This document shows positions 850 through 7,227 of a DNA stretch of 64,000 nt, in pieces. Where the stretch lies: positions 212,773 to 276,772 of the IMG/VR virus record IMGVR_UViG_3300027710_000011. One strand, 5' to 3'. Source of the DNA: a virus. Both the position numbers and the translations under genes were made by a program. Numbering within the stretch: the first letter of the stretch is position 1; each line of letters starts with the position of its first letter. Under the pieces are notes generated by a model. The model made no database searches. It was not told the DNA's origin and was given only the letters and a program-made list of their open reading frames with translations.

Positions 850-1500
850 TTACTGCTCAGCAACTTCACTGATTTTTTCTTCAGCTTGTACTGGAGCAGT
901 TTGTTCAAAAAAGTCGAAGCGCATTTTGATGTGGTGGCTTCGTCCGTGTTTGTGCCGCAAGTCCAAGAAAAGGTGAGGTTCTTGGTCAAGCTGGGTAACA
1001 AAAGAATATTCATGAACAATTATTTCTTGCTTGATGCTTTCCAGATACTCGAGCAGTTGCTGGAGAACAAAGCGATAGTTGATCACGCCGCACGTCAAAA
1101 GACGCGCATCTTTTGGGAAGGCTGTCGTATCGGACAGTTCAGTGAAAACGCGCCGCAGTGTCTTTGCGGCGATTTTCAAATCCTTGACTTCATTGGTCCT
1201 ATCAGCAATAGGTTCGATGCTGATCATTGCACGGTTACCTGCCTCATTGATGTCATAAAGCATCTCTGTGACAACATAACGGTCGGTGTTTTCAGGATGT
1301 GCCCGCTCGGCGGAATACATCAGTTTCGAATTGGGTTTTGCTGTGGACTGAATGGCTCTCATCAACAAACGAGTTTGGTCGATCATTCGACTCATGGCGC
1401 TTGGATACTTGCAGTGCAGGTACTTGCGAATGAAAGTCAACTCGGTGTTGTTGAAAGCAATATCGCTGGTCCTTAGCACTATTAAAGTTCTCTTATCCAT
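850..1500 (-). CDS. Unknown phage protein, about 216 aa, start uncertain
   Basis: First gene of a minus-strand block. The frame stays open up to a GTG at 1638, with ATG codons at 1548 and 1500. I chose 1500 because AAGGGA lies upstream (spacing somewhat long) and because it leaves room for a divergent promoter before the plus gene at 1651. The mature sequence MDKRTLIVLRTSD is a folded-looking alpha/beta protein with basic patches (RHKHGRSHHIKMRF near the C terminus) and an acidic tail ending EVAEQ. No known domain is visible. The 5' end could be up to 138 bases longer. Confidence 0.65.
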   Translation of the reverse strand: MDKRTLIVLRTSDIAFNNTELTFIRKYLHCKYPSAMSRMIDQTRLLMRAIQSTAKPNSKLMYSAERAHPENTDRYVVTEMLYDINEAGNRAMISIEPIADRTNEVKDLKIAAKTLRRVFTELSDTTAFPKDARLLTCGVINYRFVLQQLLEYLESIKQEIIVHEYSFVTQLDQEPHLFLDLRHKHGRSHHIKMRFDFFEQTAPVQAEEKISEVAEQ

Positions 1501-1650
1501 AGCGATTTTTCCCTTGCCTTTTGTGTTTGCAGCGTGGCGCTTGCTCATATCAAGGCTTGTCACAATTAGGTGTTGTAGTAAAAATACGCTTTCATCGTAT
1601 GTGATGACGATATTTACTCGTACTGCATTCAAGCCCACTGGAGCCTATTC

Positions 1651-2355
1651 ATGAAAAACTCAATCTTGTCTCAAGCTCTGGAGAGTTTGGAGACACCCGT
1701 TCCCGCAGCATTGCCACCTGCTACTGAACCAGTTGCACCTGCTCCACAAGCAGCCCCTCCCACTCACGTCATCAGTCGTGAGAACACGGACGCTGCTGTT
1801 GAGCAAAAGCTCGAAGCCATGAGTCGCGACAGTGTCGTGATGAATGCGCCGCTGTCCACCCTCTTCACTCGTGCGCTGAATATTCAATTGGCCAAGAAGA
1901 ACGTGGTGACTGGCGAGTTCGATGGCGTTACGCCTGCAGCCACAACTCAAGCTGAAGCCGTTGCGACTGAAAGCCAGGCGCAAGACGCTTACTTCTCCGC
2001 AGCAGCCCGCCGAGTCTTCCAAGACACTCACAAGGTGGAAGAGCGGATTGACATTACGGATCCGGTAAAGCCTGAAGTTCCTGAAAGCTTGGAAACCGGT
2101 GGTTCAGGTACAAAGCTGATTGCGCCAGCCACTCAGGAAGAAACCATCAAGTTCTTCAACTCCAACGACCTGGATGGTTTGGAGCCCAAGTTCGTTTTCT
2201 ACCGCGACGTTGGCATTAAGACTGACGGCGTGGTGAAGGAAGACTGGGAAACCCAGAAGATGATTGCTTTGAACGAGCAAAGCAGTGATGCCAATTACGT
2301 GGTTGAATCCATCGAAGTGGTGATTCGTACTCGCAAGGTTGACATCAAGGACTAA
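1651..2355 (+). CDS. Unknown, probably virion-associated protein, 234 aa
   Basis: ATG at 1651 with GGAGCC seven bases upstream. The first 45 residues are rich in Pro, Ala and Thr and look disordered. The remainder is a compact acidic domain ending in a beta-rich segment (VVESIEVVIRTRKVDIKD). Length and composition fit a small virion or scaffold-type protein, but I recognise no family. It is transcribed divergently from the 850-1500 gene and is followed 14 bases later by a hairpin terminator, so it is probably a one-gene unit. Confidence 0.75.
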   Translation: MKNSILSQALESLETPVPAALPPATEPVAPAPQAAPPTHVISRENTDAAVEQKLEAMSRDSVVMNAPLSTLFTRALNIQLAKKNVVTGEFDGVTPAATTQAEAVATESQAQDAYFSAAARRVFQDTHKVEERIDITDPVKPEVPESLETGGSGTKLIAPATQEETIKFFNSNDLDGLEPKFVFYRDVGIKTDGVVKEDWETQKMIALNEQSSDANYVVESIEVVIRTRKVDIKD

Positions 2356-2369
2356 AAGTCTGAAAAAGT

Positions 2370-2393
2370 AAAGAGGGGGTAAAACCTCTCTTT
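2370..2393 (+). terminator. Hairpin terminator followed by TTTATG
   Basis: A nine-base-pair stem with one G-U pair, starting AAAGAG and closing CTCTTT, lies 14 bases after the 1651-2355 gene. TTTATG overlaps the end of the 3' arm (2391-2396). It probably ends that transcript. Confidence 0.7.
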
Positions 2394-2631
2394 ATGTTGT
2401 CACTTGTAAAACGCTGCTAAGGACCCTACAAAGGCCATAGATGAAATAAAAAAGAAAAGTCGAGGGTAGGTAGCTACCCAAATCTGAGTTCAATACAAGC
2501 CTTTTTAAAAGGTCACTATGCCAAAAAATACTGGCTAGCTTACTAATATAGTTAAAGCTATTTTAACTAAACCTAGTATAATAGGGGGGCCCCAGACCCC
2601 CGATAGTATACTAAGAATAATAAAGAGTATA

Positions 2632-2673
2632 ATGCGCGTGCGCGCACACATGCGCACGCATACGCGCACGCGT
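2632..2673. repeat. 42-nt alternating purine-pyrimidine tract with GC inverted repeat
   Basis: Every base from 2632 to 2673 alternates purine and pyrimidine, mostly GC with some CA steps. Within it CGCGTGCGCG (2635-2644) is perfectly complementary to CGCGCACGCG (2663-2672), and the spacer holds a smaller ATGCG/CGCAT pair. AT-rich DNA with TATAAT hexamers flanks it on both sides. Such tracts favour left-handed DNA or cruciform extrusion under negative supercoiling. The function here is unknown. Confidence 0.85.
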
Positions 2674-2720
2674 TCTATAATGAGGGTTTCTTAAAAAGAG
2701 AAATTTTTTAAGAGTTAAGC

Positions 2721-2741
2721 GGCTGGGTAGTAGACCCAGCC
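2721..2741 (+). terminator. Hairpin terminator followed by TTTTATG
   Basis: Perfect eight-base-pair stem GGCTGGGT/ACCCAGCC with a five-base loop, then TTTTATG at 2742-2748. It lies in noncoding DNA with no gene directly upstream, so it either ends a noncoding transcript or marks the start of the next one. Confidence 0.7.
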
Positions 2742-2748
2742 TTTTATG

Positions 2749-2985
2749 CTGAGAAGATGAGATCTTGAAGTTATAGGCTTAGAAAAGGTTTTAAGAGGTC
2801 TTAGAGCTATTTTCGTTGCTTAGATGAGCAACGATGAGTCTGAGAGAAAAGAAAGCCGTATAGACGGTTTAAACGAATCTAGCCAATTGACAGACCAACT
2901 ACCAGAAAAAGGACTTCGTCCAAAGTCTTGAGAGATTACCCTCCCCCAAAGCCCCCTCCCGCGAAACCGGGGCGGGGCGGCTTTT
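2749..2985 (+). ncRNA. Candidate structured noncoding RNA
   Basis: Between a terminator-plus-TTTATG element and a GC-rich hairpin followed by TTTT (2948-2985) lie several small hairpins: CGTTGCT/AGCAACG near 2814-2833, CCGT/ACGG near 2855-2870, and GGAC/GTCC with a UUC loop near 2912-2922. No open reading frame with a ribosome binding site is present. The arrangement suggests a short terminated RNA, but it could equally be a leader for the gene at 3083. Expression is not demonstrated. Confidence 0.3.
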
Positions 2986-3082
2986 GACTTTACTTCCCTT
3001 TTCCTTTGTGGAGGTACTCACAACACCTCTTCGCCGTTCATGAGTGGCGGCAACCTGAAACAACGTTACTGAGGCGAACGAA

Positions 3083-4324
3083 ATGCAAGAAGCAAAGATC
3101 AGAGACATCTTCGACGATGTCTGCCGGAACGTTGTGGCTGATAAGGCATTGAGCCTGAGGATCCATCGCTATGTCGTGGACTTTATCAACCGCAACAGTG
3201 AACACTCCCAATTCTTCGGGGGCAACTTGACAGGTGTTCAAGTCGTGCGGTTTGTGGAGTCGGACAAGAACCACTGGTTCGACGATATCCTGGACGTTAA
3301 CGAACATGACTTGCAGGACAAGATCAACAAGCTGGCTTGCGTACAAGGCAAGGACGGTGTGCGTCACGTGTCTGGTGACGCTTTGAACCAATCGTGCGTG
3401 TGGCTTTGCTACAAGTTCCACAATGCATCGAATCTCACCATCGACGAGCGTGCCCAAACCATCCAAGACATCTTGCTGGCTTTGCAGTTCAAATTCCTGA
3501 CCAGTCGTTTGTTCCGTCACTTCAAGTTCCCAGCCGACCGCGCTTCGGCTGAGGCTGCGTACGCGCAGTTGTCGAACAAGTATTCGATCAAGATCTACGG
3601 TACTTGGTTGAAAGTCCTGGAAGCACGTTGCTCTGACATCACGGCAAAGACTAGCTCTCACTTCAATGTGATTGCTCGTATGGATGACGACATGGGCGTT
3701 GTTCGAATGCTCAATGACATTCAAGGTCGTCTGCGTGACATGCTCAAGAACATCTTTGGTCAGTTCGTACAGATCAAGGACGCGGGTGAGAAAATCACAT
3801 CCAGCTCCGGTGTGGTTGACTTTGACGGCGTGGAAGTGCTCAAGGATCGAAGTAAAGGCTTGGCAACTTACACCAACTACATGAACTCCGTTGTGGGTGA
3901 CAAGAACTCATTCATTCGTGGTGAGTTGCTGAAAGTGGTTCAAGACATCTTCCCTTCTGCCCCACCCAAGCACATCGTCAGTGCACTTGAATACATCTCG
4001 AACAATTACTTGAAATCTCGTTCCGACGATATTGCCAAGTTGATCGAGATGACGATGATTCACAGCTTCACGTACTTGGAGAAGAATCGTCAAACAGTTC
4101 AAGCCGGCATTAACTTGCCCAAACTGTTGGAGCGTTTGCGCGGTGTTTACACATCGTCCCGTTCTACGGATCCTGACTTGATGGATCTTCGTCGGTTTGC
4201 AGAAGTCATTGTTCGTAAGTCTGTAGATACACGCACAGATAGCGTCATTGCTTCTGTGCGAACCGCAGTCTTGCTTTACATCGTGTCTCGTGCATACACG
4301 ATGTGTCATTGGTCCAACGTGTAA
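3083..4324 (+). CDS. Unknown phiKZ-type phage protein, 413 aa
   Basis: ATG at 3083 with GAGGCG upstream. A soluble, mostly alpha-helical protein of 413 residues with mixed charge, no membrane segments and no nucleotide-binding motif. Its position before TerL and its length suggest a virion or assembly protein, but this rests on context only. A long noncoding leader region lies upstream. The gene is followed by a 76-base gap and the 4401 gene in the same direction, so the two may share a transcript ended by the hairpin at 4864. Confidence 0.75.
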   Translation: MQEAKIRDIFDDVCRNVVADKALSLRIHRYVVDFINRNSEHSQFFGGNLTGVQVVRFVESDKNHWFDDILDVNEHDLQDKINKLACVQGKDGVRHVSGDALNQSCVWLCYKFHNASNLTIDERAQTIQDILLALQFKFLTSRLFRHFKFPADRASAEAAYAQLSNKYSIKIYGTWLKVLEARCSDITAKTSSHFNVIARMDDDMGVVRMLNDIQGRLRDMLKNIFGQFVQIKDAGEKITSSSGVVDFDGVEVLKDRSKGLATYTNYMNSVVGDKNSFIRGELLKVVQDIFPSAPPKHIVSALEYISNNYLKSRSDDIAKLIEMTMIHSFTYLEKNRQTVQAGINLPKLLERLRGVYTSSRSTDPDLMDLRRFAEVIVRKSVDTRTDSVIASVRTAVLLYIVSRAYTMCHWSNV

Positions 4325-4400: not shown

Positions 4401-4814
4401 GTGTTCGCCATGGGTCATTTTCGATTACTTAGTCAGCTGCTTCCGAAGGCCATCGAAACTATTCGAGGTGAAAGAAGTCTGATTGAAATCACTGAAGCAA
4501 GGGCTCAGATAGAGTCCTTAGTCGCATACTCTGTTGAAGGGTATACAGTGACTATCCATTGTCAGGAAAGAAAATACAGGTGCATGTATAAGCGTTGGTT
4601 TGTGCCAAACTTCGTGATTAAAACTTACGAAGTCTTTGCCACTATCGCTGGGAAAGCACCTGACGTATTGATCGATGCTTGCGCCAGAGACAGGACGTTC
4701 CCTCGACTATTGAACTCGTGGTCCAACTCGTCCAGTCAAAAGGAAGCAGCAATAGAGGCCTTCTTAGACCTCCTACATGCCAGACTGCGTTACGCTCAAA
4801 GCACGTCTGGTTAA
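4401..4814 (+). CDS. Unknown small phage protein, about 137 aa
   Basis: Frame open from a GTG at 4401, with an in-frame ATG at 4410 that may be the true start. Neither has a convincing ribosome binding site, which is unusual in this phage. The protein starts MGHFRLLSQLLPKAIETIRG and looks helical and basic in the middle (CQERKYRCMYKRW). It precedes a long hairpin terminator at 4864, supporting a real gene at the end of a transcript. No known family. Confidence 0.55.
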   Translation: MFAMGHFRLLSQLLPKAIETIRGERSLIEITEARAQIESLVAYSVEGYTVTIHCQERKYRCMYKRWFVPNFVIKTYEVFATIAGKAPDVLIDACARDRTFPRLLNSWSNSSSQKEAAIEAFLDLLHARLRYAQSTSG

Positions 4815-4863: not shown

Positions 4864-4908
4864 AAAGCCAACACCTATCCGGGAACTAACTCGGGTAGGT
4901 GTTGGCTT
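4864..4908 (+). terminator. Long hairpin terminator
   Basis: A stem of about 16 pairs beginning AAAGCCAACACC and ending GGTGTTGGCTTT, with a loop of about 12 bases, followed by ATTCC. It ends the 3083-4814 transcript. The tail is TTTATT rather than the TTTATG seen at most other sites in the window. Confidence 0.8.
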
Positions 4909-5046
4909 TATTCCGTCACTTTATCTTTTTTTATTATATACACCAAGCTTATGGTGAATGCGCTGCATCCATGCGGCCATTAAATGGAGAGGTTATGCAT
5001 CACTTCAAAGATTTTTGTCTTAGAGAGAAGTTGGAGTAACTAAGTA

Positions 5047-7227
5047 ATGATACTCTTCTTAGACGACTGGAAGAAATATCCAAGAGCAATCATCGACATG
5101 AAGACGACGAACACGTCCTTCATTCGACTGGCTTCGGTTTATCGCGCAATGGGTATCGAGAACAATGCGTTCTTGCTCGCCCTACTGAATCCAGACTTGC
5201 AAGGAGTTGATCCATACTCGCCTGATTTGACGCTTGAGCAGATGGCGGCGATCAGTTTGGAATGCAAGCACAATCCTTGGTATTTCTTTCGAGAGATTGC
5301 TAAGGTCCCTGCTTCGGGCGGTAACGACGCAATGCGGCTTCAGGCCAATCGAGGCAATATTGCATTGTTCTGGTTGTTCTTCAATCACATCACGCAATTT
5401 CTAATTCAGCCACGGCAGACAGGTAAGTCTATTAACGTTGACGCGTTGATGATCTTGCTGCTGAACATCATCTGTATTGCTACAAAGATCAACTTGCTGA
5501 CAAAGGACGACACTCTGCGTCGTGCCAACGTTCAGCGGATCAAGGACATGATGGAGGAACTCCCTCCATACCTGTTCCTGAAGGGTCCGAGTGATCTGAA
5601 CAATACAGAAGAAATTACCATCAACGCGCTGGGTAACCGTTACACGACTCACGTTCCACAAAGCTCTCCAAAGCGTGCGGATAACATGGGCCGGGGTTTG
5701 ACTACTGCGGTTATGCATGTTGACGAAGCACCCTTCCAGGTGAACATTGAGATTGCGTTGAAAGCAGCTCTGCCTGCTATGACTGCAGCTATCGAAGCAG
5801 CTAAGCGTGAAATGGCTCCGTATGGAACTATCTTCACTACAACGGCTGGTAAGAAGGATGACAAGGACGGCGCTTTCATTTATCGCGAGATGATGGAGTC
5901 TGCACCTTGGACTGAGAAGTTCTTGGATTGCAAGAACCTTGTAGATCTTGAAACAACTATTCGTACCAATAGCCGAGGAGGTAAGGTTCGAGTTCGTTGC
6001 GTCTTCAATCATCGGCAACTGGGTAAGACGGATGAATGGATGTTGCGAGCTCTGGAGGATTCCTTCCAGTCTGGCGATTCTGCTAACCGAGACTTCTTCA
6101 ACATGTGGACGTCCGGCTCTCAGACCAACCCGATCCCTATTCACTTGCTCGAGCGCATTGCTGGCTCACGCATGGAGCCTTTGGAAACAGAGATCTCCAG
6201 TCAAGACCGTTACATCACGCGCTGGTATATTCCGGCCGATACGATTCATGGCCGCATGGCGAACGGTAAGTTTGTCCTAGTCCTTGATACCAGCGAAGCC
6301 GTCGGCAATGACGATATTGGTTTGTTGCTGATCGATCTGGCTACAACCGAAGTGATTGCGTCAGGTACGTTCAACGAAACCAACTTGATTAAGTTCTCTC
6401 GTTGGCTGTTGCAATGGTTCATCCGCTTTGAGAACATCACCGGTTTGTTGGAGCGACGCTCTACTGGTGGGATGATCATGGACTACTTGATCGTTTACAT
6501 GATCGAAGCTGGTATTGATCCCTTCAAGCGCTTGTTCAACACAGTGGTGCAAGACTACCGTGAGAATCACGACAACTTCGAAGAGATTCGTAAACCAATG
6601 AATCGTCGCGATCCTCGTATCTACGATCGCTTCAAGAAGACGTTTGGTTTCTCCACTTCAGGCGGTGACGGTACGTATAGTCGTAATGGACTTTACTCCA
6701 GCACACTGATGATGGCTGCTAAGCGTGGTTGTGATTATGTTTACGACAGTACCCTTATTGACCAGGTGAATGCCTTGATCAATAAGAACGGTCGAGTCGA
6801 TCACCCGCAAGGCGGACACGACGATATGGTCATCGCGTGGCTGCTTGGTTTCTGGTTCATGACTAAAGCAGTTAACGTTGGTTTCTACGGTATTGATTCA
6901 CGACTACTGATGTCTAAGAATCAAGACTTGTCGAATCCGGCCAGCGTAATACCTACTCAAGATCAAGAGGTCCAAAACGCTCTGCGTGATAAGATCGAAG
7001 GTCTGACAGAAGAGCTCGGTAAAGAGCGTGACAAGTTTGTAGCTCAGCGTTTGGAGCAAGAGATTCGAAGTCTGATGAAATACGTCATCGTAAAAGAAGA
7101 CGAAATCTACAGCGTCGATGAACTGCTTAGAACGGCTAAGGAAAAGCGTGTTGAGAAGAAACGCTTTAACAGCTACCAGCAAAGTCCTTATCAAATGACT
7201 TCGCTGCAACCAGGTTACTATCGATAG
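5047..7227 (+). CDS. terL: Terminase large subunit
   Basis: The packaging motor ATPase and headful nuclease that drives DNA into the prohead. Visible motifs, in order: Walker A QPRQTGKS (121-128), Walker B VMHVDE with D226 and E227, a coupling motif TTTAGKK starting at T264, then the RNase H-fold nuclease with first acidic residue D414 (VLVLDTSEA) and the C-terminal GGHDD with D592 and D593. Length (726 aa) fits jumbo-phage TerL, and phiKZ gp25 holds the same place before the tube and sheath. The ATG at 5047 follows GGAGTAAC. No small terminase is recognisable nearby. The last 100 residues are charged and probably coiled. Confidence 0.93.
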   Translation: MILFLDDWKKYPRAIIDMKTTNTSFIRLASVYRAMGIENNAFLLALLNPDLQGVDPYSPDLTLEQMAAISLECKHNPWYFFREIAKVPASGGNDAMRLQANRGNIALFWLFFNHITQFLIQPRQTGKSINVDALMILLLNIICIATKINLLTKDDTLRRANVQRIKDMMEELPPYLFLKGPSDLNNTEEITINALGNRYTTHVPQSSPKRADNMGRGLTTAVMHVDEAPFQVNIEIALKAALPAMTAAIEAAKREMAPYGTIFTTTAGKKDDKDGAFIYREMMESAPWTEKFLDCKNLVDLETTIRTNSRGGKVRVRCVFNHRQLGKTDEWMLRALEDSFQSGDSANRDFFNMWTSGSQTNPIPIHLLERIAGSRMEPLETEISSQDRYITRWYIPADTIHGRMANGKFVLVLDTSEAVGNDDIGLLLIDLATTEVIASGTFNETNLIKFSRWLLQWFIRFENITGLLERRSTGGMIMDYLIVYMIEAGIDPFKRLFNTVVQDYRENHDNFEEIRKPMNRRDPRIYDRFKKTFGFSTSGGDGTYSRNGLYSSTLMMAAKRGCDYVYDSTLIDQVNALINKNGRVDHPQGGHDDMVIAWLLGFWFMTKAVNVGFYGIDSRLLMSKNQDLSNPASVIPTQDQEVQNALRDKIEGLTEELGKERDKFVAQRLEQEIRSLMKYVIVKEDEIYSVDELLRTAKEKRVEKKRFNSYQQSPYQMTSLQPGYYR

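Follow-up and report, generated by a model that had tools for sequence, protein, structure and literature searches.

A candidate supercoil-responsive, Z-DNA-prone tract in a conserved non-coding region of phiKZ-like jumbo phages

Whether Z-DNA has a function in bacteria and phages is a long-standing debate, in large part because the candidate sites lie scattered and show no conservation. Z-DNA-forming sequences have been described near promoters, such as in the 5' flank of c-myc, where they undergo a stress-induced B-Z transition (PMC3024258). In the phiKZ family of phages, the promoters of the vRNAP and nvRNAP polymerases are AT-rich for the early genes, and comprise TATG (phiKZ) or AACA-6N-TA/G (AR9) for the late genes (PMC5312081). 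The DNA analyzed here, hereafter the window, corresponds to the last 64 kb of a 276,772-bp virus record. The TerL protein it encodes shares 57% identity with its counterpart in Burkholderia phage FLC9 and 40-44% with those of phiKZ-like phages infecting Pseudomonas or Xanthomonas, and the source virus is a phiKZ-like jumbo phage.

The features of the locus are listed in Table 1. A reading made from the sequence alone had pointed to a 42-nt purine/pyrimidine alternation with complementary 10-bp arms and flanking TATAAT hexamers, located in a large non-coding gap. Every step of the alternation was checked: the tract, which reads ATGCGCGTGCGCGCACACATGCGCACGCATACGCGCACGCGT, is CG-rich and has no break, the two arms are exactly complementary, and TATAAT hexamers are indeed present at 2628 and 2676. 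The gap is the only long one in the window without a credible gene. Its placement "upstream of terL" is loose, as TerL starts 2.4 kb downstream, with two genes in between, and the gene directly downstream of the region is that of the conserved head protein. The tract is exceptional in length. The second-longest alternating run of the window is 14 nt, the longest run in Markov-simulated 64-kb sequences is 23 nt, and chance would yield ~2e-8 runs of 42 nt per 64 kb. Within the entire 276,772-bp record, it is the only alternating run of at least 22 nt.

Table 1 Features of the tract and its surroundings (window coordinates).
Feature	Position	Strand	Remarks
gpA gene	850-1638	-	gene order
gpB, conserved left neighbour	1651-2355	+	234 aa
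Non-coding control region holding the tract	2356-3082		727 bp
AAAAAATACTG element	2523-2533	+	one exact copy in the record
TATAAT box and GC hairpin	2574-2613	+	GGGGG 2584-2588 / CCCCC 2597-2601; ~20-30 AT-rich bases left of the tract
TATAATG across the tract's left edge	2628-2634	+	sequence scan
Alternating CG-rich tract (the element)	2632-2673		matching tracts at the equivalent position in L002, L003, L040, L064 and L199
Left 10-bp inverted-repeat arm, CGCGTGCGCG	2635-2644		exact reverse complement of the right arm
Right 10-bp inverted-repeat arm, CGCGCACGCG	2663-2672		exact reverse complement of the left arm
Lowest-onset B-to-Z segment	2635-2672		38 bp; published energies of PMC3024258
TATAATG right of the tract	2676-2682	+	putative promoter box; CGCGT-NN-TATAATG spacing also in L003
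Intrinsic-terminator-like hairpin and T run	2721-2745	+	right of the tract
gp23-like head-protein gene, right neighbour	3083-4324	+	phrog_2921; homologues annotated structural head protein in several records
gp24-like gene	4401-4814	+	gene order
Terminase large subunit TerL	5047-7227	+	downstream of the gp24-like gene

The region surrounding the tract contains several hairpins, as well as the AAAAAATACTG element, of which a single copy is found in the homologous region of many relatives. TATAAT boxes occur three times on the plus strand of the 64 kb, all of them inside this region. The two TATAATG copies of the window are both at the tract, and a role of TATAATG as a phage-wide promoter was therefore rejected. 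No sigma-70-type -35/-10 pair with a 16-18 nt spacing was detected between 2300 and 3150, where only -10-like TATAAT boxes are present. A tRNA search, a family search with gpB, and a DNA-level search of phage records with the non-coding region returned no match. In many relatives, a AAAAAATAC(TG) element, often GTAAAAAAATACTG, occurs once per homologous non-coding region, in either orientation (for instance at L013 4576-4584), and is possibly a phage promoter or origin element. Ten relatives (L022, L026, L033, L034, L038, L046, L056, L061, L063 and L065) have their sole 40-bp blocks of at least 90% G+C upstream of gp23, within 2.5 kb of this gene; these blocks are mostly GGC/GGGC-rich, G-rich rather than alternating, and the region often carries an extreme-composition block of some kind. 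Further downstream, between gp24 and TerL, a strong hairpin (4864-4909) flanked by A/T runs, and by a minus-strand TATAAT to either side, resembles a two-way terminator.

Using TerL and gp23 as queries, we retrieved 56 homologous loci, representing 642 kb. The tract is present in the three genomes of the window's lineage, in the three genomes of a second lineage, and in none of the other loci. Its absence from close relatives had been put forward as evidence against a function, but both viruses that share the gene order of the window, L002 and L003, have such a CG alternation in the corresponding gap. That of L003 is a 25-nt tract, GCGCGCACGCGCGCACGCACGCGTA, followed by GTATAATG, and its CGCGT-NN-TATAATG motif is identical to that of the window; that of L002, CGCGCGCGAGCGTGCGCATGTGTG, has its alternation broken once. 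The gp23 proteins of these relatives are only ~55% identical to that of the window, and their G+C content is 58% for L003 and 39% for L002, a range that spans the lineage. A second query for further members of this lineage found none. The second lineage comprises L040, L064, and L199, the latter from a Paraburkholderia adhaesiva assembly and encoding proteins 92-96% identical to those of L040 and L064. Here, the tracts are located upstream of gpB: in L040 and L199, a strong tract stands on either side of an AT-rich core containing a hairpin, and in L064 the right-hand tract is short. In all six tract-bearing genomes, the elements follow the same order, GC hairpin, AT-rich spacer, and CG tract. 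The L003 (61.8 kb) and L040 (138.9 kb) contigs have alternating runs of at least 20 nt only at the tract, and at full strictness none is found in those of L002, L064, L023, L024, and L027; the L002 tract and several tracts of the second lineage contain one or two alternation breaks. Three phiKZ-like jumbo loci, L198, L199, and L200, lie on 284-286 kb and 144 kb contigs from Paraburkholderia/Caballeronia isolate assemblies, which suggests that these isolates carry whole phage genomes.

Most relatives, including the FLC9 group, possess the non-coding region without the tract, and hence the tract is not essential to the basic role of this region. The best Z site of the FLC9-group loci is a 17-nt alternating run in the coding end of gpB (L013 6035-6051; ~120 bp upstream of gp23 in L027 and L032), encoding Arg-Val-Arg-Ala-Arg. 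Since this run is coding, we did not take it for the element. The same group also has, upstream of gpB, a 12-codon mini-ORF, MAENPSSVANLS, that is nearly invariant (L013 4802-4840; L030, L031, and L032) and could represent a leader peptide or belong to an RNA. In the AT-rich relative L023, positions 109-137 hold TATAATG and then an alternating hairpin, GCATGTATGTAT-TTTTTT-ACATACATGC, a layout that resembles the left TATAATG and tract of the window.

We then defined as strongest Z-prone tracts those with a 20-bp segment costing at most 12 kcal/mol with published B-Z energies (PMC3024258). The 642 kb contain eight of them, all within 1.5 kb upstream of gp23, a zone that represents 12.9% of the bases (nominal P = 7.5e-8, uncorrected for kinship). 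Counted by kinship, only two independent gains are left, giving 0.129 squared, or ~0.017. On a gp23 tree built without L199, the tract marks the three genomes of the window's clade together with L040 and L064 and needs two changes, fewer than in all 500 shuffles, a comparison inflated by the near relatives. Persistence within the window's lineage is itself informative, since the flanks of its members by now align poorly. Substitutions in the tract of this lineage comprise 18 transitions and 4 transversions, versus 446 and 505 in its flanks. In the second lineage, the right-hand tract has 17 transitions and 2 transversions, versus 130 and 207 in the flanks, whereas the left-hand tract, with 7 transitions and 9 transversions, shows no transition excess. 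Part of this excess is built in, as the aligner brings two alternating tracts into phase, and the pairwise counts depend on one another. Transitions preserve a purine/pyrimidine alternation. In the comparison suggested by the sequence-only reading, of alternation rather than exact bases, the bases differ and the alternation persists at the same location in the two lineages. Because transitions keep the alternation while hairpin strength is not kept in L003, the conserved property is, as judged from these alignments, the alternation and its Z propensity, and not a cruciform or an RNA stem.

For a 5-kb domain, the tract is computed to switch to Z-DNA at a superhelical density sigma of ~-0.038, the lowest onset across the window and the 40 kb to its left; elsewhere in these 104 kb, the computed onset lies at -0.045 or beyond. 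The model is a simplified, single-run one, in which competing melting and cruciform extrusion are left out. The locus combines three traits expected of a Z-DNA regulatory element, namely a long CG/CA alternation (42 nt), a computed onset within physiological superhelicity, and an alternation kept beyond the exact sequence. The proposal of a Z-DNA-prone, supercoil-sensitive element is supported by the alternation kept in two lineages and by this lowest computed onset, and the recurrence in position suggests a working switch rather than a chance sequence. We infer that the tract is under selection, and propose with moderate confidence that, within a conserved non-coding control region of phiKZ-like jumbo phages, it serves as a Z-DNA-prone element that responds to supercoiling. 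Its role is most likely that of a torsion sink or insulator reacting to transcription near the TATAAT/hairpin units. An RNA polymerase moving rightward into gp23 would leave negative supercoiling behind it, which would flip ~38 bp to the left-handed form and absorb roughly 7-8 turns. This flip would clamp or reset the torsion around the adjacent TATAAT/hairpin units and AT-rich stretches, and thereby tune or insulate transcription, or unwinding, at the region. In this model, Z-DNA would form during infection, with transcription control or insulation as the putative output. Torsion in the phage nucleus is plausible, since host topoisomerase I is reportedly imported into this compartment (PMC13282480). 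It is distinctly unlikely, in our estimate, that the two lineages independently evolved B-Z torsion switches gating the opening of a control site (an origin or master promoter region) in the phage nucleus; on that view, the one tract of the window's lineage and the paired tracts around an AT-rich core in the other would be dedicated switches.

Several other explanations were weighed against the Z-prone element. The inverted repeat had suggested a cruciform. However, 8.8% of dinucleotide shuffles of the tract that keep its alternation reach arms of at least 10 bp, so the repeat is not an independent oddity. Its arms are no longer than the alternation predicts, inverted repeats are not enriched, and the tracts of the relatives have arms of only 4-6 bp with a loop; the cruciform was hence rejected as a conserved feature. 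The tract could also act as RNA, forming a stable GC hairpin as part of a structured leader or small RNA, whose transcript would putatively extend from the TATAAT at 2577 or 2628 to the terminator-like hairpin. Consistent with such a role, the single-strand fold of the region is far below that of its shuffles (z -8.3, 20 shuffles), the right part without the tract and the left flank still gives z -3.3, the isolated tract folds at -23.7 kcal/mol, the two tracts of L199 can pair mutually around the hairpin, and, in the FLC9 group, the hairpin after TATAAT retains its pairing via paired changes. The fold of the tract is, however, ordinary for an alternating sequence (19% of shuffles are as good), and that of L003 is worse than most of its own shuffles (91% are equal or better), indicating that pairing is not what is kept. 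An Rfam search yielded only sub-threshold matches, none above the gathering score, and we consider a function as RNA rather unlikely. Another reading, which we consider quite improbable, has a phage or host protein binding the tract as an array of CG-rich words such as GCACGC, with the alternation as a by-product. Such a protein might initiate replication, act in segregation or packaging, or be a nucleoid protein, and the site is essentially single-copy and fixed in position. By eye, GCACGC or GCGTGC is found in seven of the eight strongest tracts, but such words are expected in any CG/CA alternation, and no longer word is common to all tracts.

The same region could be a replication origin, possibly primed by transcription, where the tract would block unwinding or absorb torsion. 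It is single-copy, complex, and AT-rich, with hairpins and the conserved AAAAAATACTG element, and often holds an extreme-composition block, as the G+C-extreme 40-bp blocks of the ten relatives mentioned above are all on the same side of gp23. Against this stand the absence of iterons and the cumulative GC skew, a check that the sequence-only reading had called for: no switch is seen near the region over ~40 kb to the left and 60 kb to the right in this genome, and no clear one over ~50 and 36 kb in FLC9. The literature searched yields no origin for a phiKZ-like phage, and overall we regard an origin as very unlikely. A packaging site, also suggested, is argued against in its terL-linked form, as the region follows gpB and gp23 while TerL is inverted in many relatives; a terL-linked pac site was therefore rejected. 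Finally, the tract might be a neutral simple sequence, a CG/CA dinucleotide repeat grown by slippage where coding constraint is lacking, and then decayed. It does look like a degenerate dinucleotide repeat, its length varies among relatives, and many of them lack it. Yet it occupies the same place in every sampled member of two lineages despite protein identities of ~55% and G+C contents of 39-58%, its alternation is kept, and no tract of equal strength is found elsewhere in the 642 kb, which makes neutrality highly improbable.

How does the Z-prone element compare with known systems? In the FLC9 genome (LC667451.1), the corresponding region shares with that of the window a TATAAT, a GC hairpin, and the AAAAAATAC element beside gpB/gp23. 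It differs in its location, which is upstream of gpB and not in the gap separating gpB from gp23, in the opposite orientation of its AAAAAATAC element, and in the absence of a Z-prone tract. The phiKZ-family promoters belong to the same phage group, but the TATAATG of the window, found only twice, is no general promoter. When viral contigs were scanned for the word formed by the tract and TATAATG, 10 of the 11 matches were non-homologous, several of them being sigma-70-like promoters. Five unrelated viral contigs (L174, L178, L179, L181, and L184) have CGCRYGCGT-NN-TATAATG exactly as in the window, but with a TTGACA-like -35 box and a short CG spacer, whereas in the window the -35 box is absent and the tract spans 42 nt. 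The spacers of these five promoters, between the TTGACA-like box and TATAATG, are of the CGCGCGCGT type.

Z-prone sequences near promoters are of an already known kind. In the literature searched, thin for subscription journals, we found no description of a position-conserved tract gained twice in jumbo phages. Like the c-myc-type Z sites, the tract combines a CG/CA alternation and a low computed onset with a position beside promoter-like AT-rich DNA. Unlike these sites, it is a predicted Z-former, resides in a lytic jumbo phage, is essentially single-copy, and is kept in position across lineages. It also flags a conserved control region of phiKZ-like phages. With both position and alternation kept in two lineages, and with sister lineages that are naturally devoid of the tract, this conserved, essentially single-copy site offers a clean comparison for a direct test of Z-DNA function.
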